IMG/VR virus record: IMGVR_UViG_3300049215_000852
Coordinates: 1 to 27,513 of that record
DNA length: 27,513 nt
Direction: 5' to 3' (one strand)
Source: a virus
The stretch's first letter is position 1. Each line of letters opens with the position of its first letter. Positions 2,477-27,513 of this stretch are shown piece after piece. The notes under the pieces were generated by a model. The model saw nothing but the letters and a program-made list of their open reading frames with translations. It was not told the origin of the DNA and did no database searches. Made by a program: the position numbers and the translations under genes.

Positions 2477-2519
2477 CGCCTCTTCTGAGGCCCGTTTCCA
2501 CCCACGAAAGGTGCACCCG

Positions 2520-9874: not shown

Positions 9875-10297
9875 ATGGCCGTCAAAAACCCCGGCTTGGG
9901 GACAATCCTTCAACTCTCGATCAGCTCGACTTACACCAACGTCGCGCAGCGCGTCTCGCTCGACGGGCCCGAGCTCGCGGTCGGTACCGCCAACACGACC
10001 GACCTCGACGGCACCGTGGAAACCTATCGCCCCACGCTCCCCGACTCCGGCGAGCTCAGCGGCACGCTTTACTACGATCCCCAGGACAGCACACATAGCG
10101 CGCTCTTCTCCGCGGTCACGGCCCCGTCGCAAACGCTCAACTTGTGGAAACTCAAGTTCACCGATGCCGCGGCATCGATCCTCGCGTTCTCGGGGATCCT
10201 CACCAAGTTCAAGCCCACCGGCATGACGAAGGACGGCAACCTCAGCGCTGACTTTTCCATCAAGGTCAGCGGCACGCCGGTTATGACCCACAGTTAA
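9875..10297 (+). CDS. Tail tube protein, copy 1
   Basis: The 140-residue major tail protein that polymerises in rings to form the DNA channel of a non-contractile tail. It has the short tube-protein plan: N-terminal arm with L-Q-L-S-I-S, a loop with V-S-L-D-G-P-E-L, then D-S-G-E-L-S-G-T-L-Y-Y-D-P, W-K-L-K-F-T-D, and a final strand pair with F-K-P-T-G-M and F-S-I-K-V-S-G. It starts 4 bases after the tail completion stop with GGAGCTTGAG in front. About 85% of positions match the next gene, counted by eye. It is two residues shorter in the loop after Y-Y-D-P-Q. Confidence 0.87.
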   Translation: MAVKNPGLGTILQLSISSTYTNVAQRVSLDGPELAVGTANTTDLDGTVETYRPTLPDSGELSGTLYYDPQDSTHSALFSAVTAPSQTLNLWKLKFTDAAASILAFSGILTKFKPTGMTKDGNLSADFSIKVSGTPVMTHS

Positions 10298-10342
10298 CCC
10301 TCGCCCCTCTCACACTCTCATCCCACAACTCGGGAGCTCACG

Positions 10343-10771
10343 ATGGCCGTCAAAAACCCCGGCTTGGGGACCGTTCTACAGCTCAAGATCAGCATGACGT
10401 ACACCCCGGTGTCTCAGCGCGTCTCGCTCGACGGCCCCGAGCTCGCGGTGGGCACCGCGAACACGACCGACCTCGACGGCACCGTGGAGACCTACCGGCC
10501 CACGATCCCCGACAGCGGCGAGCTCAGCGGCACGCTCTATTACGACCCGCAAGAGGCGAGCACGACTCACTCGACGATGTTCACCGCGATCACCGCACCG
10601 TCGCAAACGTTGAACCTCTGGAAGCTCATCTTCACCGACTCGGTTGCGTCGACCCTCTCATTCTCGGGCATCCTCACGAAGTTCAAGCCCACGGGCATGA
10701 CGAAGGATGGCAACCTCAGCGCTGACTTCACTATCAAAGTCAGCGGCTCGCCGGTCATGACCCACACGTGA
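10343..10771 (+). CDS. Tail tube protein, copy 2
   Basis: A 142-residue paralogue of the preceding gene. Differences cluster in the N-terminal arm (residues 11-24, e.g. S to K and N to P) and in the loop after Y-Y-D-P-Q, where this copy has two more residues. The central block V-S-L-D-G-P-E-L to V-E-T-Y-R-P-T is identical. Both reading frames are intact and conserved to the last residues, so neither copy looks decayed. GGGAG at 10331-10335 precedes the ATG. The two may assemble into a mixed tube, or serve as major tube and tail terminator/initiator variants. This is inference, and the downstream chaperone and tape measure genes could serve either copy. Confidence 0.87.
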   Translation: MAVKNPGLGTVLQLKISMTYTPVSQRVSLDGPELAVGTANTTDLDGTVETYRPTIPDSGELSGTLYYDPQEASTTHSTMFTAITAPSQTLNLWKLIFTDSVASTLSFSGILTKFKPTGMTKDGNLSADFTIKVSGSPVMTHT

Positions 10772-10851
10772 GATCGCGCCGCGGTCGCGCAGCTTCCGTC
10801 CGTCCCCGATCGATTCGCGAACGTTTAATCACCCTTCAGGGCTCGATCCCC

Positions 10852-11220
10852 ATGCTCTCCCGCGAACAGATTTTCGCCGCGCCCGATATCAAGACGGAAA
10901 AGGTCGACGTCCCCGAATGGGGCGGCCACGTGTTCGTGCGCGTGATGAACGGTTACGAGCGCCAGGCGTTCGAGGAGAAGCAACAGGAGCTCAAGCTCCA
11001 CAGCTTCCGCGAGCGGCTCGCCGTCACGGCCATTTGCGACGAGTCGGGCAAGCTCCTCTTCACCCCGGCCGACGTCGAAGCGCTCCGCGCCAAGAGTAGC
11101 GGCGTGCTCACGCGCATTGCCGACGTCGTCTTGAAACTCAACGGCATCGGCCCCTCGGCCGTCGAAGCCGCGGAAAAAAACTCCGAGAGCACCCGCTCCG
11201 ACTCTTCTGTTTCAAGCTAG
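10852..11220 (+). CDS. Tail assembly chaperone, G-type product
   Basis: A 122-residue product from the ATG at 10852. An upstream in-frame GTG at 10768 overlaps the tube gene stop and gives an unlikely Arg-rich leader. It matches the lambda gpG role: an acidic/helical protein between tail tube and tape measure that coats the tape measure during assembly. Seen: W-G-G-H-V-F-V-R-V-M near residue 24, then a helical stretch L-R-A-K-S-S-G-V-L-T-R-I-A-D-V-V-L-K-L-N-G near the end, as in phage tail chaperones. The reading frame passes a slippery A-AAA-AAC at 11175-11181 and stops at TAG 11218-11220. It is expected to be the major product, with a minority shifting frame. Confidence 0.82.
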   Translation: MLSREQIFAAPDIKTEKVDVPEWGGHVFVRVMNGYERQAFEEKQQELKLHSFRERLAVTAICDESGKLLFTPADVEALRAKSSGVLTRIADVVLKLNGIGPSAVEAAEKNSESTRSDSSVSS

Positions 11221-11516
11221 CGCTCCGGCTCGGGTGCACCGTTAAAGAGCTCCTCACGCGCCTCGACTCGGCCGAGTTAACCGAGTGGATCGCGTTCGAC
11301 TCGATCGAGCATCTCCCCGACGAGTTTTGGTGCGCGGCCATGCTAGCGCAAACGATGGCCAACGCATGGTCGACCAAGGGGGGTTACAAGATCGCCGATT
11401 TCCTCCCCCACAAGGGGACCGGCGATGACTCGGACGTCCAACCGGCCGAGGTCGGACTCAGCTACGCGCACGCGTTAATGTCCATCATGAGCGCGCGAGA
11501 GAAACACGATGGCTGA
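10852..11516 (+). CDS. Tail assembly chaperone GT fusion by -1 frameshift (join 10852..11181, 11181..11516)
   Basis: A slip at the heptamer gives a predicted 221-residue fusion. The second part, read in the -1 frame from 11181 to the TGA at 11514-11516, contains L-R-L-G-C-T-V-K-E-L-L-T-R-L followed by A-E-L-T-E-W-I-A-F and, later, Y-K-I-A-D-F-L-P. That is the characteristic lambda gpT/minor tail assembly pattern. The T frame has no good start codon of its own near its beginning and would be unread without the shift. Its stop overlaps the tape measure start at 11509, so the fusion, tape measure and tail tube are in the classical order. The protein homology makes this much stronger than a slippery heptamer alone. 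Confidence 0.85.
11175..11237 (+). promoter_or_regulatory. Programmed -1 ribosomal frameshift signal
   Basis: The slippery heptamer A-AAA-AAC at 11175-11181 is in the correct frame (GAA AAA AAC) within a run of seven A. Seven bases later a perfect 7-bp stem can form between GCACCCG (11189-11195) and CGGGTGC (11231-11237), with a 35-base loop containing the 0-frame stop codon. Spacing is in the usual stimulatory range. An alternative 5-bp pairing CCGAG/CTCGG shares the 3' arm. Confidence 0.8.
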
Positions 11517-13782
11517 TATCTCGGCCGCAATCGGCGAGCTCGCCCTCACCGCGGCGAGCGCGAAGATTGCGCTTGATGCCTTCGACCACTCCGCGCGCGG
11601 CGCGAACAGCGACCTTCGCCAGCTCGACTCCTCCATCGAGCGGCTCACGTCGGCGATGCGCGACCTCCAAAGCTCGATCAACGTCGCGCACCAGGCCGGC
11701 CCGAGCTCGAGCAGCTCGAGCACCGCGAAGGAGAGCGCGGAGAACAGCCAGGCGATTGCCCAGGTCGCCGCGAGCATCTCCAACGCCGCGGGCCCGCTCC
11801 AACGCCTCGGCGCGACGATGGTCGGCATGGTGAACCAGGTCGGCGGCACCATCACCACGCTCGCGCGCCGAATTGACGCGTCGATGAAATTCGACACCTC
11901 CATCACTGCGCTCGACAAGCTCCGGGAGTCCGCCTCGAACAACTTCCGAAAGATGCTCATCGACGCGGGCAAAGCCGCACTCGCGATCCAGAACTACTTC
12001 TCCAGCTCGGGCGACGTCGCCCGCCACAGCCTGATGCAGCTCACCGGATCCAACTTCGGGCCCGCGGTCTCGTCGGCGCTGACGCTCAACCGCGCCGTGG
12101 GCGCGATCCGCCCGACCACCGTCTCCGCAACGGGCGCCGTCGTCGCGTTCGGCCGGCAGCTCTTGATTGCGCTCGGCGTGTTCGGCGTGGCGTTCAAGGT
12201 CGTTCAGTTCTTCCACACGGCCATTGGCGAAGCGAGCGCGTTCTCCGAAACGATCGACAAGGTAAACACCGTCTTTGGCGCCGCGGCCGGCACGATCCTT
12301 TCGCAGTCCGACGCGATGGCCGCGAAGTTCGGAATCGCCAAGCGCGAATTCTCGGACGCGGCGGCGTCGATCGGTGAGATGGGCCTGGCCGCGCGCATGA
12401 GCCAAAAGGATGCGGCGGCATTCGGCGTCCAATTCGCCAAGCTCGCGGCCGACTTCGCCTCCCAGGACAACTTGAGCTTCGAAGAGGCGGCGGCAAAGCT
12501 CCGCTCCGCGCTCGCCGGCGAGAGCGAACCTCTTCGACGTTACGGCGTGCTCATCGACGAGGATACGGTCAAGCTCTACGCCTACGCGTCGGGCCTCGCG
12601 AAGGCCGGCCACGAGCTCACCAACAGCCAGAAAGTGCAAGCCCGCGCGGCGCTGATCATGCAGGGCCTCTCGCGCGTGCAAGGCGACCTCGAGCGAACGT
12701 CCGGATCCGCCGCGAACCAGTTCCGCCGCGCAGGGGGCGGACTCACCAACTTCGCGCAGATCGTCGGCTCACTCCTCTTGCCCGCGGTCAAGCAAGCGCT
12801 CGCCAGCTTCAACGAGCTCCTCGCGACGACGATTGAGGTTTTTGAAAACAACAAGGGCACCTTCGCCGGTTGGGCCGGGAACATCGCCGAGGCGTTCGAT
12901 ACGGTCGCCATGGTCGCCCGCAACTTCGGCGACGTGTGGGAGATCGTCAAGCTCACCGCGATCGAGAAGCTCTCGAACGTCATGGCCTACCTGGAGTCGT
13001 TCCGCGACTCGCTCGGCATCATCGGCTCTTGGATCAAAGACAACTGGATGGAGATCCTGGCCAACGCGTTCAACGACATTGGCCAGTATTTTCTGAACCT
13101 CGGTTTCAACGCCACCAAGCTCTACGTGGCGCTCAAGGACCTCTTCGCCGGCAAGGGCTTCAACTTCGACTGGACGCCGTTGCTCACCAACTTCAAGACG
13201 GTGGCAATGGAGCTCCCCGAGTTGATGAAGCCGGCGACGGTCTCCATGGAAGAGGGGATCGATGCGGCCATGGCGCGCATCGCCGAGCGGGAGGCCAAGC
13301 TCGCGGCCCAGCTCAAGGCCAACGCCGAGAAGTCGGCGGGCGGCGCCGGCTCCGGTGCGGCCGCGGCATCCGAGCGATTGCTCGAGCTCTCCAAAAAGGT
13401 CAAAGAGTACATCGACGATGCAAAAACACCCCTGGATAAGTTCCAGGAGAAGATTAAGGACCTTCAGGAAATGCGCGCGGCCAAGCTGATCGACGATGCG
13501 ACGTTCAACAAGGTCGCCGGCGGCGCGGCGCAGGAATTCGCTCGCGACTCCAACGAAGGCCGGAAACCCTACGCCGGCGCCCTCACCGCCAACTCCCGCG
13601 AGGCCCGGAGCGCGATCCTCGAGCATCGCATGGCCGGCGATCGCGACCCGGTGAAACAGGTCGAAAAAGCGATCCGCGAACAGACCGCGATTCAGAAAGA
13701 GCAGCTCGTCGGAATCAAGCGGCTCAGCGACATCCTCGGAAGCAAAGAGAAAACTGAGAAAGAGCTCGGCCTCCCCCTCTAA
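11509..13782 (+). CDS. Tail tape measure protein
   Basis: A 757-residue protein that sets tail length and is extruded during DNA ejection. The N-terminal 130 residues are helical with a Ser/Ala-rich linker. A hydrophobic segment lies at about 210-235 (L-L-I-A-L-G-V-F-G-V-A-F). Residues about 285-425 carry the tape-measure core (A-A-S-I-G-E-M-G-L, S-F-E-E-A-A-A-K-L-R-S-A-L-A-G-E, Q-F-R-R-A-G-G-G-L). The rest is coiled-coil-like and charged. With the rule of about 0.15 nm per residue, the tail would be near 110 nm, short to medium for a siphovirus. The ATG at 11509 overlaps the chaperone T stop, and the stop overlaps the next gene's ATG. Confidence 0.92.
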   Translation: MADISAAIGELALTAASAKIALDAFDHSARGANSDLRQLDSSIERLTSAMRDLQSSINVAHQAGPSSSSSSTAKESAENSQAIAQVAASISNAAGPLQRLGATMVGMVNQVGGTITTLARRIDASMKFDTSITALDKLRESASNNFRKMLIDAGKAALAIQNYFSSSGDVARHSLMQLTGSNFGPAVSSALTLNRAVGAIRPTTVSATGAVVAFGRQLLIALGVFGVAFKVVQFFHTAIGEASAFSETIDKVNTVFGAAAGTILSQSDAMAAKFGIAKREFSDAAASIGEMGLAARMSQKDAAAFGVQFAKLAADFASQDNLSFEEAAAKLRSALAGESEPLRRYGVLIDEDTVKLYAYASGLAKAGHELTNSQKVQARAALIMQGLSRVQGDLERTSGSAANQFRRAGGGLTNFAQIVGSLLLPAVKQALASFNELLATTIEVFENNKGTFAGWAGNIAEAFDTVAMVARNFGDVWEIVKLTAIEKLSNVMAYLESFRDSLGIIGSWIKDNWMEILANAFNDIGQYFLNLGFNATKLYVALKDLFAGKGFNFDWTPLLTNFKTVAMELPELMKPATVSMEEGIDAAMARIAEREAKLAAQLKANAEKSAGGAGSGAAAASERLLELSKKVKEYIDDAKTPLDKFQEKIKDLQEMRAAKLIDDATFNKVAGGAAQEFARDSNEGRKPYAGALTANSREARSAILEHRMAGDRDPVKQVEKAIREQTAIQKEQLVGIKRLSDILGSKEKTEKELGLPL

Positions 13783-17174: not shown

Positions 17175-17633
17175 ATGGAGACGAACGACGTGAAGGCCCG
17201 CACGGGTCGCCGTGCGGCCGGCCGAGACTTCGTCGAGGTTTTCGCCGGGCTCGAGGAATATGTGCGACAGGAGAAGTCGCGGCGACGGGCGGGCGGCAAC
17301 GACCTCGGCCAGCAAACGGAGCGGACGGCCAAGCAAACCCTGATGCTCACCGTGCGCGAGCGTCAACTCCTGGACGTCCACGCTCTCGGCTTCGGAGTCG
17401 ACCCCGCCCAACTTGTCGGTCACCTCCTGACCGCGTGTTGCAAGCGGTTTGTACTCCAGGACCGGGGGGGGAACGGCCCTGGAGTTGAATCGGCAAACGG
17501 GGAAAGCGTGGTTAACCTTTCCGGTGAAAATATCCCGATCCCGGAAACTATTCCGGCCCCGGAATCGATCACCGAGGCTCCCGCCCCAGAGCAGGGGAGG
17601 GGTCAATCGGGCCGGCGCGCGAAAGTCGCGTGA
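17175..17633 (+). CDS. Hypothetical protein in the lysogeny cluster, possible DNA-binding
   Basis: A 152-residue protein with GAGGT about 7 bases before the ATG. The N-terminal 50 residues are basic (R-R-A-A-G-R, K-S-R-R-R-A-G-G). Residues about 54-95 contain Q-T-L-M-L-T-V-R-E-R-Q-L-L followed by two predicted helices (P-A-Q-L-V-G-H-L-L-T-A-C-C-K-R), reminiscent of a strand-helix-helix (ribbon-helix-helix-like) fold, but this is not certain. The C-terminal 55 residues are Pro/Glu/Gly-rich and probably disordered. It is divergent from the zinc-motif gene and convergent with the integrase, overlapping that gene's end by 31 bases. Position suggests a phage regulator. Confidence 0.65.
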   Translation: METNDVKARTGRRAAGRDFVEVFAGLEEYVRQEKSRRRAGGNDLGQQTERTAKQTLMLTVRERQLLDVHALGFGVDPAQLVGHLLTACCKRFVLQDRGGNGPGVESANGESVVNLSGENIPIPETIPAPESITEAPAPEQGRGQSGRRAKVA

Positions 17634-18508
17634 GCCAGCTCCCGCGCCAGCAGCAACGGATCCGGGTGAAGGTACCGCTCCGTGGTCGTGATCGACCCAT
17701 GCCCGAGCGACGCGGACACGACCCAGAGCGGTACTCTCCACTCCGTGAGCGCGATCGTCGCGAACGAATGACGCAGCCCATGCCAGGTCACCCTTCCCAA
17801 CCCCGCCTCCGCGGCCGCGGCCTGTAGCTGTGTGAGCGGCCGTGAGCGATGGTCGCAATTGAGCCACGGCCCTTGCCGTCTGACTCCCGGAAACATCCAT
17901 TTGCAGCCCGTCTCGCGGAGCCACGGCTCGAGCATCTCGAGCAGCTCGTGGGGCACCGCGATCACGCGCGTACTTTTGGCCGTCTTCAACGGCCGTTCCC
18001 GCGGCACGATCCTTAGCAGCCTCGCGCCCGCGTCGAGGTCCTCGAGCCGGAGGCAAAGCGCCTCGGTGCGTCGTACTCCGGTATGCGCGATCACGGCCGT
18101 GAGCGCGTGGAGCCGTCTCCCCTTCCAGTCGCGGGCCCTCTCCCTCAGCGACTCGAGGAGCCGCGAGACCTCGTCCCACGTGAGCACGGGATTGCGGCTC
18201 ATCGGCACCGGCTTGGGCGCGATCCGTTTGAGCGACGGCATGCGCTCGAGGTATCCCTCGTCGACCGCATAGCGGCAGATCGTGCGAACGTAGTCGAGAT
18301 ACCCTCGCTTGCTGTTCGCATTGCAGCTCAGCGAATCGAGGTACCTCCGAACCTCGCGCGTGGTGAGATCGGCCGTCGAGGTCGGCTTGCAAGCCTCCTC
18401 GAATTCCCGAAGCACTTGGCGGAATTTGAGATACGAGGCGTTGGATTCCTTCCGCTCGTACAGGCGCAAAAGACCATCCCTGAACGCTTCGAAAGCAATA
18501 GCGTTCAT
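17603..18508 (-). CDS. Tyrosine recombinase/integrase of the left prophage
   Basis: A 301-residue site-specific recombinase. The N-terminal SAM-like core-binding domain covers about 1-100. The catalytic domain shows R146 (H-T-G-V-R-R-T-E), K175 (P-L-K-T-A-K-S), H243 and R246 (W-H-G-L-R-H-S-F), H270 (S-L-G-H-G-S-I) and the nucleophile Y279 (T-E-R-Y-L-H-P). All six positions are intact and length is complete, so it looks active. It starts 155 bases from the tRNA fragment and reads away from it. GGGAG lies 9 bases upstream of the ATG. The short form lacks an arm-binding domain of lambda type. It probably integrates the left prophage at the tRNA gene. Confidence 0.93.
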   Translation of the reverse strand: MNAIAFEAFRDGLLRLYERKESNASYLKFRQVLREFEEACKPTSTADLTTREVRRYLDSLSCNANSKRGYLDYVRTICRYAVDEGYLERMPSLKRIAPKPVPMSRNPVLTWDEVSRLLESLRERARDWKGRRLHALTAVIAHTGVRRTEALCLRLEDLDAGARLLRIVPRERPLKTAKSTRVIAVPHELLEMLEPWLRETGCKWMFPGVRRQGPWLNCDHRSRPLTQLQAAAAEAGLGRVTWHGLRHSFATIALTEWRVPLWVVSASLGHGSITTTERYLHPDPLLLARELAHATFARRPD

Positions 18509-18584: not shown

Positions 18585-18662
18585 ATCTGTAAAGTACCGT
18601 AATATGCGCAAACATAAAGAGTTACGGGGTCTGTTCCATGTAATCATCCCATGGACATAGTT

Positions 18663-18704
18663 TTCGCAATGCTGAGGTTGAGGGTTCGATCCCCTTCCGC
18701 TCCA
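18663..18704 (+). other. tRNA-Ala(CGC) 3' fragment, attachment core (attL/attR)
   Basis: The fragment reads as anticodon loop TTCGCAA (18663-18669, anticodon CGC), 3' anticodon stem TGCTG, variable AGGTT, T-stem GAGGG, T-loop TTCGATC, T-stem CCCTT, acceptor CCGCTCC (18697-18703) and discriminator A at 18704. T at position 70 fits the G3-U70 alanine identity pair. The upstream bases do not complete the anticodon stem, and no GGGGCGG-like 5' acceptor is present, so this is only the 3' part. Two integrases flank it. This is the usual signature of integration into a tRNA gene with the core copied to the element boundary. Confidence 0.85.
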
Positions 18705-18813
18705 CTGGACCTAACTTGCGACAGGCATAGTAGTTAGCGTGCTGCCACCACGGTGGCCACGAGGGCACGGCGACTCCGAGAACCCGGTAGACTACCGGAT
18801 TGGAGTGCATTCC

Positions 18814-20022
18814 GTGTCCGCGCGTACACCGTCATATCGCCTGCACAAACCGTCGGGGTTGGCCGTCGTCACGTTGAACGGCGTCGACATCTATCTCGGC
18901 CGGCACGGCACCGAAGAGAGCCGGGCGGAATACGACCGCCGCATCGCCGAATGGCTGCTCAATGGGCGACAGTCTCGCCCCGCATCGCAGGCCGCGAGCG
19001 ACCTGGCGGTGAATGAACTGGTTGTCGCCTACCGAAAGTGGGCGGACCAGTATTACCGGACGCCGAGCGGACGACCGACGATCGAGCCAAAGAACATCCG
19101 GCTCGCGACCCGTCCCTTGCTCGACTTGTACGGACACTCGCTCGCCGCGTCGTTCGGTCCGCTGGCGTTGAAGTGCTGCCGCCAACGAATGATCGATGGC
19201 GACGTGTGCCGCTTGGAGGTCAACCGCAGGGTCGGGCGGATCGTCCGCATGTTCAGATGGGCGGTCGAGAACGAACTGGTCGCCCCGAGCGTGCTTCAAG
19301 GCTTGAGGGCGATCCAGCCATTGCACGCGGGGCGCAGCGCGGCGCGAGAAAGCGAGCCCGTCCGCCCCGTGCCCGATTGGGTCGTCGACGCGACGCTCCC
19401 GTTCCTGGCCCGCCAAGTCGCGGCGATGGTTGGGCTGCAAAAGCTGACCGGCATGCGGCCGGGCGAAGTGGTCGCGATGCGGATGTGTGACCTGGACATG
19501 AGCGGCCGGACGTGGGTCTACGCACCGCCGACGCACAAGACCCAGCACCTTGGAAAGCAACGCCATATTTTCATCGGTCCGAAGGCGCAAGCGGTCCTCC
19601 GGCCCTGGCTGCGAACCGACCTGACTGCGCCGCTGTTCAGCCCCGCCGAAGCGATGGCCGAGCGATGGGAGCGGCAACGGGCGACCCGCAAAACCAAGGT
19701 CCAACCGTCGCAACGGTCGCGGAAACGGCCCCGTCCCGAGAAGACGCCTGGCGAGTGCTACACGACCACGAGCTACCGGCGGGCGATCGCGGAAGGGGTC
19801 CGCAAGGCGAGCCGAGCGGCGAAGCGCGAGAGCCCGGACGCGCCCGACGTACCGGGGTGGCACCCCCACCAGTTAAGGCATAACGCAGCAACGTATTTGC
19901 GCCGCGAGTTCGGGATCGAGGTCGCGCGAACCGTGCTCGGTCACTCAGGTTTGGACGCGACACAGATTTATGCGGAAGCCGACTTGGAGAAGGCCCGAGC
20001 GGCGATGGATCGAGTTGGTTAG
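18814..20022 (+). CDS. Tyrosine recombinase/integrase of the right element (planctomycete type)
   Basis: A 402-residue integrase from the GTG at 18814, chosen because GGAG lies 8 bases upstream and the first residues then read P-S-Y-R-L-H-K-P-S-G, the typical opening of this group. A GTG at 18739 would add 25 unlikely residues. Catalytic residues in this numbering are R215 (L-T-G-M-R-P-G-E), K242, H352 and R355 (P-H-Q-L-R-H-N), H377 (V-L-G-H-S-G-L) and Y386 (Q-I-Y-A-E-A-D). Residues about 278-345 are a basic insertion (R-K-T-K-V-Q-P-S-Q) that I associate with planctomycete integrases. All catalytic positions are intact. It reads away from the tRNA core, divergent to the other integrase. Confidence 0.93.
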   Translation: MSARTPSYRLHKPSGLAVVTLNGVDIYLGRHGTEESRAEYDRRIAEWLLNGRQSRPASQAASDLAVNELVVAYRKWADQYYRTPSGRPTIEPKNIRLATRPLLDLYGHSLAASFGPLALKCCRQRMIDGDVCRLEVNRRVGRIVRMFRWAVENELVAPSVLQGLRAIQPLHAGRSAARESEPVRPVPDWVVDATLPFLARQVAAMVGLQKLTGMRPGEVVAMRMCDLDMSGRTWVYAPPTHKTQHLGKQRHIFIGPKAQAVLRPWLRTDLTAPLFSPAEAMAERWERQRATRKTKVQPSQRSRKRPRPEKTPGECYTTTSYRRAIAEGVRKASRAAKRESPDAPDVPGWHPHQLRHNAATYLRREFGIEVARTVLGHSGLDATQIYAEADLEKARAAMDRVG

Positions 20023-20063
20023 GATCGAACCCACGGGAACGGCCGCTGATCACGGCCGAAGGG

Positions 20064-20116
20064 TCCGGCAGACGTGGCGCCCCCTCTGACGTCACGCTCT
20101 GCCGGGCTCTGCCGGA
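20064..20116. promoter_or_regulatory. Operator-like repeats upstream of the winged-helix gene
   Basis: GCTCTGCCGG occurs twice in perfect 10-bp tandem (20096-20115). The inverse TCCGGCAGA lies at 20064-20072, matching TCTGCCGGA at 20108-20116. The last copy ends 20 bases before the ATG at 20136, in the promoter/leader zone. A hairpin with CGGCCG arms (20040-20058) just before may end integrase transcripts. Confidence 0.45.
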
Positions 20117-20135
20117 CTTTCAGAGGGAACCCTGC

Positions 20136-21074
20136 ATGCATGTCCGCGCGACGGACCCCGCCCGCCCCGAGAACACGCCCGACGTATCGGTTGACGGCCC
20201 AACCGAGGATGATCTCTTCGCCCGGCTGGCCAAGCTCGCCCCGCAGTTGGCGAAGCCCGTCTCGGCGTTGCCGGATCTACCGCGCCCCGAAGCGCCGCAA
20301 GCGAGCGAGCCGAGCGCACCGGAGCGTGAGCTTGCGCAACTGCTCAATGGCTCGTTCGAGGTGCTCGACCTGACCGCGAGAGTCGTGGACCGAGCGCGTA
20401 GCCCGTGGGGCGTCTCGCTCCCGCCGCGCCCCGCACTCCCACCGTGCGCCGGGCTCGAACACGAGTGGTCGCCGACGATCGGTTGGTGCTACGAGCTAAT
20501 GCGCTTGGCCGATGGGCGGTGGTTTGTCGGCGTGCGCCATCGTGGCCAGCGCGGCTTTCAGAAGCCTGAGCTGATCGACTGGCAGCACACCCGCCCGGCC
20601 AAGTTTTGGCAGGTCACGCCGAAGGGCGCAATTGAGTTCTGCGCCGAATTCGGGATCATGCCCCCGGACGACCTGCTTGCCCTATTCGCGGGACCCGAGC
20701 GACCCGCCGAGCAATCGGCGGAAGCCGCTCACACGAACGGCAAGCCAGCGAGCCCGCCCGCCGCGAGCATAATCTCCCCCCGATGGGACCGAGAGCGGCG
20801 AACGCTTACGTTCGACGGGCGAGAGCACAAGCTGTTCGCTCGCGAAGCGCCTACGCAGTTCATGCTGCTAGACGCGTTCGAGGTGCAAGGCTGGCCGCGG
20901 TCGGTCCCGAACCCGTACCCTTCGGACGATGAAGGCGACCGGTTGGCACAAACACGCCGGGACCTGAACGCCGCGTTGTCGGCTGCCGGCTGCCCCATTC
21001 GCGTCGGGCGGGACAATCAACAAGCGACGTGGCGCAAGTCGCAAGTCCCCGATCCTCCCGCGACTTGCGACTAA
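20136..21074 (+). CDS. Winged-helix-like putative regulator
   Basis: A 312-residue protein with AGAGGGAA about 7 bases before the ATG. Residues 1-90 are acidic and Pro/Ala-rich. Residues about 108-185 form a compact aromatic domain (E-H-E-W-S-P-T-I-G-W-C-Y-E-L, G-R-W-F-V-G-V-R-H-R-G). Residues about 215-300 follow a pattern common in planctomycete proteins: P-R-W-D-R-E-R-R-T-L-T-F-D-G, then A-P-T-Q-F-M-L-L-D-A-F, G-W-P-R-S-V-P-N-P, then A-Q-T-R-R-D-L-N-A-A-L and a final strand pair, which looks like a winged helix. Placed between integrase and replication genes, it may control the element's switch. An 11-bp inverted repeat overlaps its stop codon. Confidence 0.7.
   Translation: MHVRATDPARPENTPDVSVDGPTEDDLFARLAKLAPQLAKPVSALPDLPRPEAPQASEPSAPERELAQLLNGSFEVLDLTARVVDRARSPWGVSLPPRPALPPCAGLEHEWSPTIGWCYELMRLADGRWFVGVRHRGQRGFQKPELIDWQHTRPAKFWQVTPKGAIEFCAEFGIMPPDDLLALFAGPERPAEQSAEAAHTNGKPASPPAASIISPRWDRERRTLTFDGREHKLFAREAPTQFMLLDAFEVQGWPRSVPNPYPSDDEGDRLAQTRRDLNAALSAAGCPIRVGRDNQQATWRKSQVPDPPATCD
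21037..21072. repeat. 11-bp perfect inverted repeat at the end of the winged-helix gene
   Basis: AGTCGCAAGTC (21037-21047) pairs perfectly with GACTTGCGACT (21062-21072), with a 14-base spacer, overlapping the last codons. The left arm also contains a short direct repeat CGCAAGT. No U-tract follows, so a protein binding site or mRNA end structure is as likely as a terminator. Confidence 0.6.
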
Positions 21075-21110
21075 CTCCCGCGCAACTCCCGTATCTCCCG
21101 CGCAACTCCC
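21075..21110 (+). repeat. Two 16-bp direct repeats with 20-bp period
   Basis: CTCCCGCGCAACTCCC is present at 21075-21090 and again at 21095-21110, exactly two helical turns apart, directly after the stop of the winged-helix gene and about 90 bases before the DUF1580-like start. Each unit also begins and ends with CTCCC. It is a candidate binding site on one DNA face for a regulator or excisionase. Confidence 0.6.
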
Positions 21111-21197
21111 TTCGACGCATTCCGCCCGCGTTGAGTAGGACCGATCCATCGCATTCGAGTGCCGCGCAGTGCGGCGAGCAACGCGATGGGAGGTCCC

Positions 21198-21518
21198 GTG
21201 ATCACGATCGCAGACGAGCGCGTCTTCCCGTTGGGCGACATGCCCGACCACGTTCCGCACGGACGGGGCGGAAAGCGGCGACACCCGTCGACTGGTTTCC
21301 GCTGGGCAAAACACGGTCACCGCGGCATCCGCCTAGAAACGATCCGGATTGGCGGAACATTATGTACATCCGTTGAAGCGTTGCAGCGGTTCTTTGAGCG
21401 GCTGAGCGCGACCGACGGCCCGGCCCCGGCATCGTCCACCCCCGCCCGTCGTTCGCCCGCCTGCCGGGCGAAAGACATCGCGACAGCCGACGCCGAACTG
21501 AAAAAGCTGGGGGTGTGA
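21198..21518 (+). CDS. DUF1580-like small protein, possible excisionase/regulator
   Basis: A 106-residue protein. The GTG at 21198 is preferred because GGGAGG lies 4 bases upstream. The ATG at 21186 would place that site inside the gene. Residues 1-70 follow the DUF1580 plan known from planctomycetes: V-F-P-L-G-D (helix), R-G-G-K-R-R-H-P-S-T, F-R-W-A-K-H-G-H-R-G-I-R-L-E-T, then G-G-T-L-C-T-S-V-E-A-L-Q-R-F. This has the shape of a MerR/excisionase-like helix-turn-helix. The C-terminal tail is Pro/Ala-rich. It ends 4 bases before the primase gene. A role like AlpA/Xis in switching excision or replication is inferred. Confidence 0.8.
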   Translation: MITIADERVFPLGDMPDHVPHGRGGKRRHPSTGFRWAKHGHRGIRLETIRIGGTLCTSVEALQRFFERLSATDGPAPASSTPARRSPACRAKDIATADAELKKLGV

Positions 21519-21521
21519 CGC

Positions 21522-24089
21522 ATGACCGCGTGCAACGGCCGGCCGTTCCCACCTGTGCCGCCGCCCGCCACGGATGACGCACTGGCGACAGCGAGCTGGG
21601 CGTTGGCTTGCGGCTTGTGGCCGGTCCCAATCACCCCGATCGATGACTCCACGGCGAACAGCCCGGGCAAGCAGCCGATCGGCAAGGCGTGGGGTGCGGA
21701 GCGGCCGAGCGAATCGTCGCTCACGACGACGTTCCGTCGGAATCCGGGCGCTGGAGTGGGCCTGGTGCTTGGCGCGGCTGGGCTGGTCATCGACCTGGAC
21801 GTGGACGACCCGGCGGAAGCCGAAGCGACGCTCGCCCGACTGTTCCCCGGCGGCATCCCCGCGACGATGGGATGGCAGGCGAATAAGGGCGGCCACATGT
21901 TGTTTCGCTATGACCCGCGTCTGGCTGGGTTGGGCGCGATCGTCAAGGGAGTCCGGGACGGCGCGACCGGCAAGGTGGGCGGCAACCCGTGGTATCTCGG
22001 GATCGAACTGCGTCTGGGCGCGGAGCCGGGCGAGTCCAAACAGCTACAGAGCGTGGCCCCGCCTAGCCTGAAGGCCGATGGTTCGCCCCGCGCGTGGAAC
22101 GGTTCCGCCGAGATCATGCCGTTGCCCGAGTCGGTATTCGCCGATTTGGAGAAACACGGGCGCGAGCGGGTGAAGCCGCCAGCGCGCACGGGGACCGCCA
22201 GCACGCGCCATCAGCGACCCACGAGCGTTGGCGCCACAAGCTATGCCCGCGCGGCACTCAATCGCGAGGTGGAAGCCGTCGCGGCCGCGCCCAATGGATC
22301 GCGCAATGGGACGTTGAACAGTGCCGCGTTCTCGCTCGGGCAACTGGTCGGAGCGAACGCCCTGGACCTGGGCGACGTCGAGAGCGCCCTGACCGACGCG
22401 GCTCGCTCGGCGGGCCTGACCGACGCCGAGACCGCAGCGACGCTCGCGAGCGGGCTGTCCGCTGGTTTGGCGTCGCCGCGCGACCTGGCAGGGATCGGAG
22501 CGCGATCGAGGAACGGGCACGCGCCCCACGATGGGCACGCCCGGAATGGGCCGACGGAAAGTAACGGAGCGGACAGCGAGCGCCCGGAGATCGTCGTCAG
22601 TGAAGCCGCCAACGATCCGCATCGGCTCGCCCGGCTCTTTCTCGCTGCCCAGTGCAGCCACCCCGATGGGCTCACGCTGCGGTCTTGGCGGGGCGAGTGG
22701 GTCGAGTGGCAAGGGTCTTACCGACCCGTTCCGGCCGGGGACCTGCGCGCACGGCTCGCGGCGGTCGTCAAGGCCGAGTTCGACCGGCTCAATGTGAGCG
22801 AGACCGCGATCTGGGAGCGCGCGGGGGACGACAAGCTGAAACCGCGTCCGACGGCTTACAAGGTGACGCGGAGCCTGATCGCCGACACACTCCAGGCGCT
22901 GGCGAGCATCACGCTCGTTCCGAGCGCGACCGATCAACCCGTCTGGCTGGACGGCGAATCGCGATTCCCCACCGCCGAGGTCCTCGTGGCACCGAACGCG
23001 ATCATCCACCTGCCGACGTGGGTCGAGCGGCGCCCCGAAGCGGCGATCATGCCGCCGACGCCCCGCTTCTTTGCCCCGAGCATGCTGGATTATGAGTTCG
23101 ACCTGAACGCGCTGGAACCAACCGAGTGGTTGCGGTTTCTCGGTGCCCGCCCGATCACTTCGGCAAGCAGGGTGCGCTATCAGCTATGGTCCGATCCTGA
23201 AGACGTCGATTGCATCAACACGTTGCAGGAGTTCTTCGGCTATTGCTTATTGCCCGACACCCGGCAACAGAAGATTCTCGGGCTTTTCGGTCCGAAGCGG
23301 TCCGGAAAAGGGACGGTCGCGCGCGTGCTGGCCGCGCTCGTAGGGCAAGCGAACGTCGCGAACCCGACGCTGTCGAGTCTCGGGACGAATTTCGGGCTGG
23401 CACCGCTGCTCGCCAAACTGGTCGCGATCATTACGGACGCTCGCTTGAGCGGTCGGAGCGACGTCGCCCAAGTAGTCGAGTCCCTGCTCTCGATAAGCGG
23501 CGAAGACAGCAGGACGGTCGACCGGAAGCACCTGCCGCCGATCACGGTCAAGCTGCCGGTCCGGTTCGTCGTCATCGCGAACGAACTGCCCCGCATCGCC
23601 GACGCTTCGGGCGCCCTGGCGGGGCGCATGCTCATCCTGCCGATGAGCCGAAGCTTCTTCGGTCAGGAGGACCCCACTCTCACCGACGTTTTCTTGACCG
23701 AACTGCCAGGGGTTTTGTTGTGGGCGATCGAGGGATGGCGTCGACTCCGTGAGCGCGGTTACTTCGTCCAACCCAAGGCCGGTAAGTCGCTGGTTGAGAC
23801 GTTCGAGGAGATGTCGAGCCCCATCGGTAGCTTTGTCGCCGAGTGCTGCAAGGTCGAGCCCGACGCTTCGGTGCTCGTGGACGACCTGTTCCGTTCCTGG
23901 AAAACGTGGTGCGAGCGCCGGAACCGCAAGGACGCGGGCGACATCGCTCTGTTCGGGCGGAACCTGCGATCCGTGCTGCCGGCCCTGCAAACCAAGTCGG
24001 TGCGCGGCCGTGACGGCTGGGCGCGGGAGTTCCGGGGCATCCGGGAGCGAGAGCCGGGCGAGACCCCCGACGGGGTGGCGAGCCAATGA
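21522..24089 (+). CDS. Primase-polymerase / SF3 helicase replication protein
   Basis: An 855-residue replication initiator. The N-terminal archaeo-eukaryotic prim-pol domain (about 20-205) includes K-Q-P-I-G-K-A-W, the metal-binding pair in V-I-D-L-D-V-D-D (D91, D93), N-K-G-G-H-M-L-F with H125, and an S-V-A-P-P-S motif. Residues about 210-560 form a linker and D5_N-like region. The C-terminal superfamily 3 helicase has Walker A G-P-K-R-S-G-K-G-T (590-598), A-I-I-T-D-A-R-L as Walker B-like, and R-F-V-V-I-A-N-E-L-P-R followed by L-A-G-R-M-L-I-L-P (sensor and arginine finger region). This is the P4-alpha/phage-plasmid primase architecture. It should start and drive replication at the adjacent iteron origin. 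Confidence 0.93.
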   Translation: MTACNGRPFPPVPPPATDDALATASWALACGLWPVPITPIDDSTANSPGKQPIGKAWGAERPSESSLTTTFRRNPGAGVGLVLGAAGLVIDLDVDDPAEAEATLARLFPGGIPATMGWQANKGGHMLFRYDPRLAGLGAIVKGVRDGATGKVGGNPWYLGIELRLGAEPGESKQLQSVAPPSLKADGSPRAWNGSAEIMPLPESVFADLEKHGRERVKPPARTGTASTRHQRPTSVGATSYARAALNREVEAVAAAPNGSRNGTLNSAAFSLGQLVGANALDLGDVESALTDAARSAGLTDAETAATLASGLSAGLASPRDLAGIGARSRNGHAPHDGHARNGPTESNGADSERPEIVVSEAANDPHRLARLFLAAQCSHPDGLTLRSWRGEWVEWQGSYRPVPAGDLRARLAAVVKAEFDRLNVSETAIWERAGDDKLKPRPTAYKVTRSLIADTLQALASITLVPSATDQPVWLDGESRFPTAEVLVAPNAIIHLPTWVERRPEAAIMPPTPRFFAPSMLDYEFDLNALEPTEWLRFLGARPITSASRVRYQLWSDPEDVDCINTLQEFFGYCLLPDTRQQKILGLFGPKRSGKGTVARVLAALVGQANVANPTLSSLGTNFGLAPLLAKLVAIITDARLSGRSDVAQVVESLLSISGEDSRTVDRKHLPPITVKLPVRFVVIANELPRIADASGALAGRMLILPMSRSFFGQEDPTLTDVFLTELPGVLLWAIEGWRRLRERGYFVQPKAGKSLVETFEEMSSPIGSFVAECCKVEPDASVLVDDLFRSWKTWCERRNRKDAGDIALFGRNLRSVLPALQTKSVRGRDGWAREFRGIREREPGETPDGVASQ

Positions 24090-24092
24090 TCG

Positions 24093-24466
24093 TGTGGCGC
24101 GACGTGGCGCGGTGTGGCGCGATGGAATCAGCCTCCCGCCACGACGCAAGTCGTTACCGCTGACCAGCAAAAGACGCCTGTGGCGCGGTGTGGCGCGATG
24201 TTTCTTACTTATTGCATGAAGCAGGAAACAAGAAAGTAGTGAACAAAAAGAATGAGCGCAAATCGTATGGACTGCAAAGAGGTGGGATCGCGCCACACGC
24301 GCCACAACAGCGCTCCGCAATGGGGGCCGCGATGGCTGGCCGAAGCGAGCCGGGTGCCTGTTTTTCAGGCTCAAACACCACACGAGCCCGTGGGCGACTC
24401 GCCCGTGGCGGGGTCGGCCGACATCGCGCCACACATCGCGCCACAACTGGGCGACATCGCGCCACA
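24093..24466. repeat. Iteron arrays in opposite orientation around an AT-rich island, candidate origin of replication
   Basis: The unit is TGTGGCGCGATG. Direct copies: 24093-24102, 24104-24112, 24113-24124 (perfect), 24179-24188 and 24189-24200 (perfect), often 10 bp apart. Inverted copies (CATCGCGCCACA): 24286-24297 (11 of 12), 24298-24306 (partial), 24422-24433, 24434-24445 and 24455-24466 (all perfect). Between the two arrays, at about 24199-24280, is an unusually A/T-rich stretch with short A- and T-runs. The primase-helicase gene ends just before it. Iterons flanking an AT-rich unwinding element next to the initiator gene is classical origin layout. Part of the right array is coding (D-I-A-P-H-I-A-P-Q). 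Confidence 0.78.
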
Positions 24467-24749
24467 ACTGAGCCCCGAGCGCCGGCCGTGGCCCCCGCGC
24501 GACGAACAGCTCGCCGACTGGCCCGCCCCGTGGCGTGAAGCGTGGGGAAGGCGCACGAACGAGCTGATCGACCAAGGGCGCGATTGGCGGTCCGCCGAGT
24601 CGGCCGCGTTCGCCGAGATGCTCGCGAGGATCGAAGCCGGCGACCCGTCCCCTGAGCCCTTGCGCGAGCCCGTCGCCGACGTTCCTGAGCCCACCCCAAG
24701 CTGGTCAACGCTGCCCTTACGATTCGGAGGTGGCGAACGTGTGGCGTAA
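24252..24749 (+). CDS. Hypothetical protein overlapping the right iteron array
   Basis: A 165-residue frame. The N-terminal half contains residues translated from the iterons (D-I-A-P-H-I-A-P-Q-L-G-D-I-A-P-Q-L) and looks low in structure. The C-terminal half has P-W-R-E-A-W-G-R-R-T-N-E-L, R-D-W-R-S-A-E-S-A-A-F-A-E-M-L, an amphipathic pattern I have seen in short planctomycete mobile-element proteins. The ATG at 24252 has no clear binding site and lies in the AT-rich part, so the true start may be further in. It overlaps the next gene by 11 bases. Function unknown. Confidence 0.55.
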   Translation: MSANRMDCKEVGSRHTRHNSAPQWGPRWLAEASRVPVFQAQTPHEPVGDSPVAGSADIAPHIAPQLGDIAPQLSPERRPWPPRDEQLADWPAPWREAWGRRTNELIDQGRDWRSAESAAFAEMLARIEAGDPSPEPLREPVADVPEPTPSWSTLPLRFGGGERVA

Positions 24750-25158
24750 TCCTCGCTATCCACAACCCGAGCCCCCGCGCCCGGCCGCCGAGAGCGGCGA
24801 GCGCCTTTTGACGATCGAACGCGGTCGCGACACCGAGTTCCGCGTTTGCCTGTCGACGTTCCAGGGCAAGCCGTACGTCAGCTTGCGCGTCTGGCAACTC
24901 GACCCCGACTCGGGCGAATGGTGGCCAGTGAAGGGCAAGGGTTGCAGCGTCCGGCTGAGCGAAGCCGCGCGGCTCGCGGACGCGCTCCGCGCGGTCGCGG
25001 AAGACCGACCGCGCAACCTGAGTGAACCAAGCGCGACTCGCTCGCCATTGAGTGCCCGACGTCCGAAGGCAGCGCCAGCGAGCCCCCCGCCGCGGAGCTG
25101 GGCAGCCAATCTTCCGGCGGGACCGACGTCCGCCGCAGAGTTCAGCGAGTTCGATTGA
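24739..25158 (+). CDS. PC4/p15-like single-strand DNA-binding protein
   Basis: A 139-residue protein from the GTG at 24739, with GGAGG at 24726-24730 spaced 8 bases. A GTG at 24730 overlaps that site and is rejected. Residues about 20-85 have the PC4/transcriptional coactivator p15 pattern: E-F-R-V-C-L-S-T-F-Q-G-K-P-Y-V-S-L-R-V-W, then P-D-S-G-E-W-W-P-V-K-G-K-G-C-S-V and a C-terminal helix E-A-A-R-L-A-D-A-L. This fold binds single-stranded DNA as a dimer. The rest is Pro/Ala/Ser-rich. Next to the origin and primase-helicase it may act as a replication ssDNA-binding protein or transcription modulator. Confidence 0.75.
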   Translation: MWRNPRYPQPEPPRPAAESGERLLTIERGRDTEFRVCLSTFQGKPYVSLRVWQLDPDSGEWWPVKGKGCSVRLSEAARLADALRAVAEDRPRNLSEPSATRSPLSARRPKAAPASPPPRSWAANLPAGPTSAAEFSEFD

Positions 25159-25215
25159 CGTTCAGTATGCAAACGATTCACACGAACTGACGAACCCAAA
25201 CCCGAGGAACCGATC

Positions 25216-25539
25216 ATGATTCAGAGACCAATCCCGAGCATGCCGTCCCGCCCGGACCCCTCGCTGAGCGAGGTGAGCCGCGAGCTGCAATCGCTGGCAC
25301 CGAGACTCCAAGAAATGGCCGCGCTCGCTGACACGCGGGCCGCGAACTACGAGCATCGTGGGAAGCACGGCGACGCTCGCCAAGCCCGTGTCGACGCTGA
25401 GGCTTGTCGACGTGCCGCGGAGCAGGTCCCGAATCGCCGGCTCGAAATGAGCAGGGCCGACCGCCGATCTTCCGACCTGATGGCGGTGGTCGGGCCGTTG
25501 CTCGCCCGACAACGCGACGGCGAGATCATGTTCGTTTGA
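25216..25539 (+). CDS. Small helical hypothetical protein
   Basis: A 107-residue protein with GAGGAA before the ATG. Residues about 16-75 are predicted helical with heptad-like spacing (E-V-S-R-E-L-Q-S-L, R-L-Q-E-M-A-A-L-A, A-R-V-D-A-E-A-C-R-R-A-A-E-Q), so a coiled coil or helical hairpin is likely. No cysteine pair or membrane segment. The 57-base leader before it is less GC-rich and could hold a promoter. Not recognised. Confidence 0.68.
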   Translation: MIQRPIPSMPSRPDPSLSEVSRELQSLAPRLQEMAALADTRAANYEHRGKHGDARQARVDAEACRRAAEQVPNRRLEMSRADRRSSDLMAVVGPLLARQRDGEIMFV

Positions 25540-25565
25540 TGACCCACCCACTTGGAGGCTTCACC

Positions 25566-25760
25566 ATGACCGACCGCACACCGCGCGAGATTCTGCGGGG
25601 TCCGACCGCCCTGAGTCTCGGGCAAGAGTTTCGCCTGCCCGGCGCGCGCCCTTCATCGGAGGGCGCTCCGCGGCGCGACGATCAAGGCCGAATCGCACTG
25701 GCCGATGGCGGGACGATGAAGTTGTCCGGCCCGTCCGAGCGACTGCTTCGCCCCAGTTGA
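25566..25760 (+). CDS. Very small hypothetical protein
   Basis: A 64-residue protein with GGAGG about 8 bases before the ATG at 25566, an almost ideal site that decides this start over longer upstream readings. Composition is polar and Gly/Arg/Pro-rich (T-P-R-E-I-L-R-G-P-T, E-F-R-L-P-G-A-R-P), with no obvious domain. It lies 26 bases after one gene and 10 before the next, in the same operon. Function unknown. Confidence 0.62.
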   Translation: MTDRTPREILRGPTALSLGQEFRLPGARPSSEGAPRRDDQGRIALADGGTMKLSGPSERLLRPS

Positions 25761-25770
25761 GGGAGCCCGC

Positions 25771-26022
25771 ATGGACCCGCACGACGCAGTGTTCAACATC
25801 GTGGTTTGCCGCTGTGTGCCTGCCGTCTTGCGCGCGATCGATGAGCACGACGCGGACGATCGCGCGGACATGCTCTTGCGAGCGTCGCGGTTGATGTTCG
25901 ACGCCGGTTCGTACCTGCTCGGACTGGCCCGGGACCCGCTCGACGACCTGGTGGCCGACGACGCTCCCAATCGCCACCGCCGCCAATTGGGAAAGCGACC
26001 CCGCCGGCCAAAAACGAGGTGA
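25771..26022 (+). CDS. Small hypothetical protein upstream of terS
   Basis: An 83-residue protein with GAGGGAG before the ATG. The first 55 residues are helical (V-P-A-V-L-R-A-I-D-E-H-D-A-D-D-R, M-L-L-R-A-S-R-L-M-F-D-A-G), and the last 15 are strongly basic (R-H-R-R-Q-L-G-K-R-P-R-R-P-K), suggesting nucleic acid contact. It touches the next gene. An accessory packaging or regulatory factor is possible by position only. Confidence 0.65.
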   Translation: MDPHDAVFNIVVCRCVPAVLRAIDEHDADDRADMLLRASRLMFDAGSYLLGLARDPLDDLVADDAPNRHRRQLGKRPRRPKTR

Positions 26023-26024
26023 TC

Positions 26025-26552
26025 GTGGACCCAGAGCTGACGCTCAAGGAACGGCGGTTCGTGGAGTGCTACCTTGGCGAGGCGAGGGGCTGCGCGAGCC
26101 TCGCCGCGAGAATGGCGGGTTACAAGAACGACCACCCCACTGGGTCGCGCCTGCTACGAAAACCTACAGTTCGCGCGGCGATCGCGAGCGAGTTGGACGA
26201 CGCCGCGATGAGCGCCAAAGAGTGCTTGGCGAGGCTCTCCGACGTCGCGCGTGGCGACCTGACTGACTTCCTCGACCTTAGCGGTGATGGGCCGCCCGTG
26301 GTCGACATCAGGAAGGCCCGAAAGCGAGGCCGGTCCCATCTGCTGAAACGGCTAGCCGTAGGCAAGGACGGAGTGCGGCTCGAGCTTCACGACCCTCTCG
26401 CCGCGCTCGCCCTACTTGCACGATTTCATAGGTTGACCGTCGACGCGAGAGAGGAGCCCGTCGATATGGGCAAGGCTCTTGAGCGAGCCCACGAGATCGT
26501 GGCCCGCCGCCGAGCCGAGCGGAACGAATCTCCAACCCACGAACCAAGGTGA
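26025..26552 (+). CDS. Terminase small subunit
   Basis: A 175-residue DNA-recognition subunit of a packaging terminase. The GTG at 26025 has GAGG 5 bases in front. A GTG at 26019 that overlaps the previous stop adds two residues. Residues 1-45 carry the family's helix-turn-helix: L-T-L-K-E-R-R-F-V-E-C-Y-L, A-A-R-M-A-G-Y, S-R-L-L-R-K-P-T-V-R-A-A-I. After it come A-K-E-C-L-A-R-L-S-D-V-A-R-G-D-L-T-D-F, typical of this group, and a C-terminal V-R-L-E-L-H-D-P-L-A-A-L-A-L-L-A-R-F-H segment. No large subunit is seen within the window. In satellites of the PICI type such a protein redirects helper packaging. In a prophage it would precede terL. Confidence 0.88.
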   Translation: MDPELTLKERRFVECYLGEARGCASLAARMAGYKNDHPTGSRLLRKPTVRAAIASELDDAAMSAKECLARLSDVARGDLTDFLDLSGDGPPVVDIRKARKRGRSHLLKRLAVGKDGVRLELHDPLAALALLARFHRLTVDAREEPVDMGKALERAHEIVARRRAERNESPTHEPR

Positions 26553-26556
26553 ACCC

Positions 26557-26682
26557 ATGCCGAAGAACATATCGATCAAGCGACTCACCAACATCCCAGC
26601 GCCTCCGATGCCCAAGCGCGCCGGATCGGCACCAAAGCCGGGGAAGACCACGCCCGGCAAACCCGCCAAGCGGGGTCGGTGA
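26557..26682 (+). CDS. 41-residue basic proline-rich protein
   Basis: The ATG at 26557 follows the terminase stop by four bases with AAGGTGA in front. The product is basic (about ten Lys/Arg), Pro-rich (I-P-A-P-P-M-P-K-R, K-P-G-K-T-T-P-G-K) and surely unstructured. The good binding site and operon position support coding, but no function can be given. It may be a short DNA/RNA-binding tail or only a translated leader. Confidence 0.55.
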   Translation: MPKNISIKRLTNIPAPPMPKRAGSAPKPGKTTPGKPAKRGR

Positions 26683-26745
26683 CGACCCGGCCGTGCGCCC
26701 GTGCTCGTGAGCCACCGATGACCGACCGCCCTGGGATCGCCGACC

Positions 26746-27513
26746 ATGTCCACTGTCACGGCCAACGACGCGGTTGCGGGGCTGCTCGACGTTCTCGCCC
26801 GCGGGCCGGTGCTCGTGCGCGTCGACGCGTTGGCCGGGCTGCTCGACGTGGCCGAGTTTGACGTCGAGCAGATCGTGGCTGAGGCGGTCGAGCGCGGCGT
26901 GGCCGAACTGTGGTCAGAAGCCCCGCCCGGACCGTGCGTGGTGCTCTCGACCAACGAAGCGAACGGGCGCAACCTCGTGATCGTCTCGCCCGCCGACGAC
27001 CCGGCCGCGGGGCGATGGCGCCGGGCCGATGAGTGGGTCCGCGAGCCGCGAGGACGACGCGAGCGAAGGCGGAAGCACAAGGAAACCCCCACCGAAGGGT
27101 TGGACGAGGTCGTCGACCCGCGCGCCCCCGGGCATCTCGAACTGCTCGAACTGCTCGAACTGGCTGAGACTGCGCGACTCGCCGCGCAGGATCGGGGCCG
27201 CCGCGCGTCGCGGGAACGCACGCTCGATGCGCTGGCCAAATCCGTGCTGACGCTGATCGGCTTGCGGCACGCGTGGTCAGCCCGCCCAAGGAAGCCGGGC
27301 GAGCCCTGTCCCGGCTGCGGTGGGCGACCGCTCGCGGTCTGGGAAGTCTGCCTGGACCTGTGGTGCGGCCGCGCCGGGTTCGACCATTTGCTCGGGCCGC
27401 TGCCGCGCGTACGGACCGCGTTGCCGACCCCGGACGGGCTGGCCGGCGGGAAGGGGCGGGCGAGCGGCAAGGCGAAGAGTAACGGCAAGGCGAGCCGACA
27501 CACGCCCCGCTGA
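26746..27513 (+). CDS. Hypothetical protein with helical repeats and a C-terminal cysteine motif
   Basis: A 255-residue protein ending exactly at the window edge. Residues 1-60 are helical with a repeated L-L-D-V (A-G-L-L-D-V-L-A, A-G-L-L-D-V-A-E), which may be a winged-helix-like start. Residues about 98-115 are very basic. Residues 127-137 repeat H-L-E-L-L-E-L-L-E-L-A. Residues about 182-208 carry C-P-G-C-G-G-R-P-L followed by C-L-D-L-W-C-G, consistent with a zinc ribbon. The C-terminal 25 residues are Gly/Lys/Ser-rich. It follows terS in the operon. A packaging-module or regulatory role is possible. I do not recognise the family. Confidence 0.6.
   Translation: MSTVTANDAVAGLLDVLARGPVLVRVDALAGLLDVAEFDVEQIVAEAVERGVAELWSEAPPGPCVVLSTNEANGRNLVIVSPADDPAAGRWRRADEWVREPRGRRERRRKHKETPTEGLDEVVDPRAPGHLELLELLELAETARLAAQDRGRRASRERTLDALAKSVLTLIGLRHAWSARPRKPGEPCPGCGGRPLAVWEVCLDLWCGRAGFDHLLGPLPRVRTALPTPDGLAGGKGRASGKAKSNGKASRHTPR

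Follow-up and report, generated by a model that had tools for sequence, protein, structure and literature searches.

Phage satellites have been described mainly in Proteobacteria and Firmicutes. Elements of the PICI/SaPI type possess an integrase gene, a replication module and a Terminase_2 terminase small subunit gene (terS) and have no capsid gene; P4 is without terS and carries genes of the sid/psu type. In the Vibrionaceae, the phage-inducible chromosomal minimalist islands (PICMI) have been described, and their SatelliteFinder model includes AlpA (PF05930/PF12728), a primase with DUF5906 (PF19263) or DUF3987 and a site beside fis (PMC10803314). Cyanobacterial and actinobacterial satellite types are recent additions (PMC11389934). 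Our literature search found no paper mentioning phage satellites together with planctomycetes.

The DNA analyzed here, hereafter the window, is a stretch of 27,513 nucleotides that makes up an entire IMG/VR record, neither end of which can be read further (Table 1). Its placement in a planctomycete by the initial annotation was supported: the primase, intR and the DUF1580 protein encoded in its right part all have their closest relatives in Planctomycetota. No near-identical contig was found in scans of viral and genome collections, and single-sequence pattern scans of viral contigs identified no close relatives of terS, intR or intL.

Table 1. Features of the window, with positions counted from its first base.
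Feature	Position	Strand	Remarks
Prophage A (left element), cut by contig edge	541..14681	+	PHROG matches; relatives in G219:C32 and G219:C5, both with terL shortly before the portal
Portal	541-1890	+	PHROG
Protease	1862-2476	+	PHROG
HK97-type capsid	2511-3839	+	PHROG
Adaptor	4175-5032	+	PHROG
Two tandem major tail protein copies	9875-10771	+	PHROG
Tail chaperone	10768-11220	+	PHROG
Putative tape measure	11509-13782	+	
intL, XerC/D-like tyrosine recombinase	17603..18508	-	PF00589, E 4e-21
Attachment core, tRNA 3' part (T-arm and acceptor strand) without 5' half	18660..18704	+	Left limit approximate
intR-side arm, three inverted repeats	18711..18798	.	18711-18737; 18744-18757; IR3 CCGGTAGACTACCGG 18784-18798
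intR, tyrosine integrase of element B	18739..20022	+	PF00589, E 6e-14; phrog_1; start probably GTG 18814
312-aa ORF	20136..21074	+	Matches no family
DUF1580 protein	21159..21518	+	PF07618, E 2e-13
Prim-Pol/DUF5906 primase-helicase, 855 aa	21522..24089	+	PF09250, E 4e-16; PF19263, E 1.2e-13; phrog_1156, E 1e-50
Iteron cluster	24094..24466	.	Nine TGTGGCGCGATG-like units, both orientations, directly behind primase
PC4/p15-like gene	24730..25158	+	PF02229, E 4e-6; phrog_4053
terS, Terminase_2 type	26019..26552	+	PF03592, E 8e-17; phrog_51, E 1.5e-22
255-aa ORF	26746..27513	+	Positive codon score; rival minus-strand ORF negative; stop is the last triplet

The right part of the window, from 18.66 to 27.5 kb (element B), has the order tRNA 3'-end core, intR, 312-aa ORF, DUF1580, primase-helicase, iterons, PC4-like gene, terS and 255-aa ORF, with small ORFs between the PC4-like gene and terS. 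The initial annotation had recognized a satellite-type gene list in this order, and the integrase, primase-helicase, iterons and terS were indeed found, with matches to Pfam and PHROG families. The reported lack of virion genes also stood, as Pfam and PHROG gave no match to terL, portal, capsid or tail families from 18.7 to 27.5 kb, and tblastn with the terL queries used gave no match anywhere in the window. The regulator and excisionase-like genes of the same list are present as ORFs, but their roles are putative: the 312-aa ORF as a regulator is a guess, and no function is known for the DUF1580 family. The DUF1580 protein, whose gene adjoins intR also in G223, G273 and G219, is possibly an excisionase-like DNA-binding protein; it matched PF07618 only, and no right-hand ORF matched AlpA (PF05930/PF12728). 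Residues 341-849 of the primase-helicase are 49% identical to a homologue of planctomycete G380. In the iteron cluster, which is likely a replication origin, the top 9-mer was seen 14 times, compared to at most 6 times in shuffled sequences. The closest PDB chain to the terS protein is 3zqp.

Compared to the described satellites, element B resembles PICMI in its PF00589 integrase, its DUF5906 primase and the absence of virion genes from its visible part, but differs from them in lacking an AlpA match, in having a tRNA 3' core rather than fis, in belonging to a different phylum, and in its extra terS and PC4-like genes. With PICI/SaPI it has in common int, a replication module, a Terminase_2 terS and the absence of a capsid gene from its visible part, whereas no recognized PICI regulator is found in B and its right end is outside the record. 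Like P4-type elements, B has int, a primase-helicase and the putative iteron origin, and its relatives bear defence cargo; unlike them, it has terS and a Prim-Pol domain, and no sid/psu-type genes were seen. The likeness extends to temperate phages of other planctomycetes (G223:C51, L215 of 38 kb, and L216) that have intR and a related primase, a tRNA target (G223 and L216) and DUF1580 (G223 and L215). These phages, however, run from the intR-primase start into terL and portal genes, which, where typed, are of the phrog_38 and phrog_21 types, whereas the window breaks off soon after terS.

The left part of the window contains prophage A, which had been credited with a complete head-tail set. 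This holds apart from the terminase: genes for the portal, protease, capsid, adaptor, major tail protein and chaperone were identified, neither terS nor terL is seen, and the terminase genes of prophage A must sit beyond base 1. Its nearest structural relative is in G219:C32, where a PF03354-type terL lies directly upstream of the portal gene. The two major tail protein copies (9875-10297 and 10343-10771) have 83-85% DNA identity. A gene for a protein of 1187 aa with the look of a beta-helix tail spike is found at 5787-9350, between the head-tail adaptor and major tail protein genes, which is an odd location for a tail spike. Rightwards of the tape measure, further genes are followed by intL on the minus strand, which is probably prophage A's own integrase. 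The intL-type family is ubiquitous in planctomycetes (377 of 392 genomes); given this distribution and a reversed copy in G273, the idea that intL and intR face inward at the ends of the relatives was dropped.

The right part was initially regarded as an element different from prophage A. Our results agree: judged from sequence, the window very probably contains two elements in tandem at one tRNA 3' site, for which the one-sided arm sites and a precedent in G219:C5 are the main arguments. The relatives of intR sit directly downstream of tRNA genes, and the window fits this tRNA-targeting family, which we define by a core from a tRNA 3' end that is separated from intR by inverted repeats. The arm layout after the tRNA is alike in G371, G273, G375, G223, G364, G219 and L216. 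In three mapped elements, tRNA 3' repeats of 42-47 nt are found at both ends: 47 nt and exact around a 38.6-kb element at tRNA-Ala in G371, 42 nt with one mismatch around a 29.4-kb element at tRNA-Gly in G273, and 44 nt and exact around a 3.3-kb element at tRNA-Ala in G375. In all three, the intR-side palindrome recurs, identical or closely related, ~120 nt to the left of the far core, which also has a TTGCAATC motif nearby on its left. ARAGORN detected no full tRNA at the core of the window. The core had been described as common to both elements; the tRNA 3' piece is seen, but its sequence, GAGGGTTCGATCCCCTTCCGCTCCA, has one copy in the window, and we infer the sharing.

By reference to the three mapped elements, a single phage would have intR arm sites flanking the core on both sides, and in the window they were found on the right only. 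The IR3 palindrome occurs once in the window, on the intR side, while the DNA left of the core has no 8-mer in common with the right side and no TTGCAATC motif. Thus, the left DNA is unlike the other intR arm, in a comparison based on three mapped elements whose palindromes are all of the GCGCGGTG type, unlike the GGTAG..CTACC type of the window; no two-ended case was found for the GGTAG-type palindromes (window, G223, G364 and G219). In G219:C5, tRNA-Gln and a 22.9-kb phage are followed by 27 nt that repeat the tRNA end, and these by intR and DUF1580. This phage matches the left part of the window in its portal, its protease, the start of its capsid, its tail protein, its tape measure and the gene after that; it also possesses an integrase and, at either end, arm sites (TGGGGACAAGTT) of its own. 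G219:C5 is a direct precedent for a tandem in which a head-tail phage and an intR element occupy one tRNA.

Our initial hypothesis, which came from the order of the ends, was that the window is one circular temperate phage opened at terL, with attP at its center and its ends joined through terS-terL-portal. The contig ends would then be adjacent in the canonical order terS-(terL)-portal, the modules are complementary (replication and terS on the right, head and tail on the left), the missing gene is exactly terL, and in G219:C32 terL lies directly upstream of a related portal gene. The absence left of the core of the palindrome and motif that are present in 3 of 3 mapped intR elements, together with the tandem of the same two kinds of element in G219:C5, made us disfavor this hypothesis, and the two integrases and a record end on a stop codon also count against a circular phage, which we now consider improbable. 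Composition separates none of these models: the GC content is ~64-65% in the left part vs. ~67-68% in the right part and tetranucleotide correlations are low across the whole window, but the drop in codon score begins near 15.9 kb, not at the attachment core.

With two tandem elements as the preferred reading, the nature of B can be judged from its relatives, which split into those with terL and portal genes and those without virion genes. The initial annotation had called for a comparison with other planctomycetes; the intR-primase start did recur there, although in G223, L215 and L216 it leads into virion genes, as described above. In some intR phages, terL is 91-93% identical across contigs whose portals are only 62-64% identical (L143, L213 and L215), which suggests exchange or strong conservation of terL. 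In G273 and G371, none of the subset of genes scanned with Pfam matched a terL, portal, capsid or tail family; the cargo consists of McrBC, Mrr, an SNF2/PLD helicase and a type IIG restriction-modification (RM) system in G273 and a type I RM system in G371. The G273 element (G273:C1; L204, L153) also holds intR, a primase and a ParB-methyltransferase. On the evidence of their gene content, planctomycetes do harbor intR elements without a capsid. At the terS position, both G273 and G371 have a gene that matches terS profiles weakly (best E ~1e-5 to 1e-4) and falls outside the terS family of the window. The closest homologue of the window's terS by tblastn among the loci examined is in G116:C49 (L322; 34% identity), in which primase and terS are followed by HsdM and HsdS (type I RM) and a helicase; terL was not found on this contig, which stops before any integrase could show. 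Planctomycete Terminase_2 genes are rare, with 12 of 392 genomes above the cut-off, and adjoin other terL families or none.

The right edge of the record also bears on the nature of B. A frame of 263 open codons closes with its stop codon on the final base, 27513. Among 213 sampled IMG/VR record ends, stop-codon ends of frames of at least 200 codons were observed 5 times vs. 0.17 expected, ~30-fold, and start-codon ends 4 times vs. 1.07 expected. About 11% of the sampled ends coincide exactly with a boundary, start or stop, of an ORF that is at least 80 aa long, and many IMG/VR records therefore seem to be cut at genes rather than at natural contig ends. Given the enrichment of final-base stops, position 27513 of this unlabelled record would be a gene-boundary cut made by a provirus caller, probably since the following genes looked non-viral.

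Such a cut tips the balance toward a B without capsid genes. We therefore favor, at about an even chance, the assignment of B to the capsid-less branch represented by G273 and G371, and its designation as a satellite is plausible from its genes. Against this stand the use of the same intR and primase by the terL- and portal-bearing prophages G223:C51, L215 and L216 and the fit of the contig ends to the gene order of one phage. These prophages also favor B as an ordinary second intR prophage in tandem with A, with its virion genes beyond 27513. An apparent gene-boundary cut just ahead of a terL operon would, however, be strange, and tblastn found no window-like Terminase_2 terS in G223:C51, L215 or L216, whose typed terL and portal genes are of the types given above; a second prophage appears rather unlikely. 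Decay of B, as a prophage that has lost its virion genes and is no longer mobile, has parallels in the 3.3-kb element of G375 (G375:C74; L151/L307), where a truncated intR remnant lies between the perfect core repeats, and in a lone Terminase_2 gene that adjoins a host-like gene in G201:C2, but intR, primase and terS of B are intact frames with family matches and the iterons are well kept, which makes decay the least probable of these explanations. G375:C74 also carries a second intR element, at tRNA-Asp, ~8 kb away.

In the reading that we favor, intR would recombine an attP bearing the tRNA 3' end, replication would be initiated by the primase-helicase at the iterons downstream of its gene, and terS would steer packaging into phage-made particles. 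In the capsid-less branch, defence or other cargo comes after the replication module, and attR closes the element; the attR of B is outside the record, and its visible content ends at 27513. The terS of B is of the Terminase_2 type and the terL of A-type phages is of the PF03354 type in the two relatives typed, so that nothing points to packaging systems of B and A that match. The role of helper that the initial annotation gave to A found no support. One tRNA site is commonly used by unrelated elements.

We tentatively propose, with somewhat less than even confidence, a planctomycete family of capsid-less, tRNA-integrating, terS-carrying satellites that have Prim-Pol/DUF5906 primases and exchangeable anti-phage cargo. 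Such satellites would have their integrases in common with complete phages of their hosts and would settle beside HK97-type prophages, in tandem at a common tRNA; the window would be one case. A tRNA-bound family with both capsid-bearing branches and capsid-less defence branches, if true, would allow the origin of satellites from phages to be studied directly, and it would mean that some of the anti-phage defence of planctomycetes resides on mobile elements.
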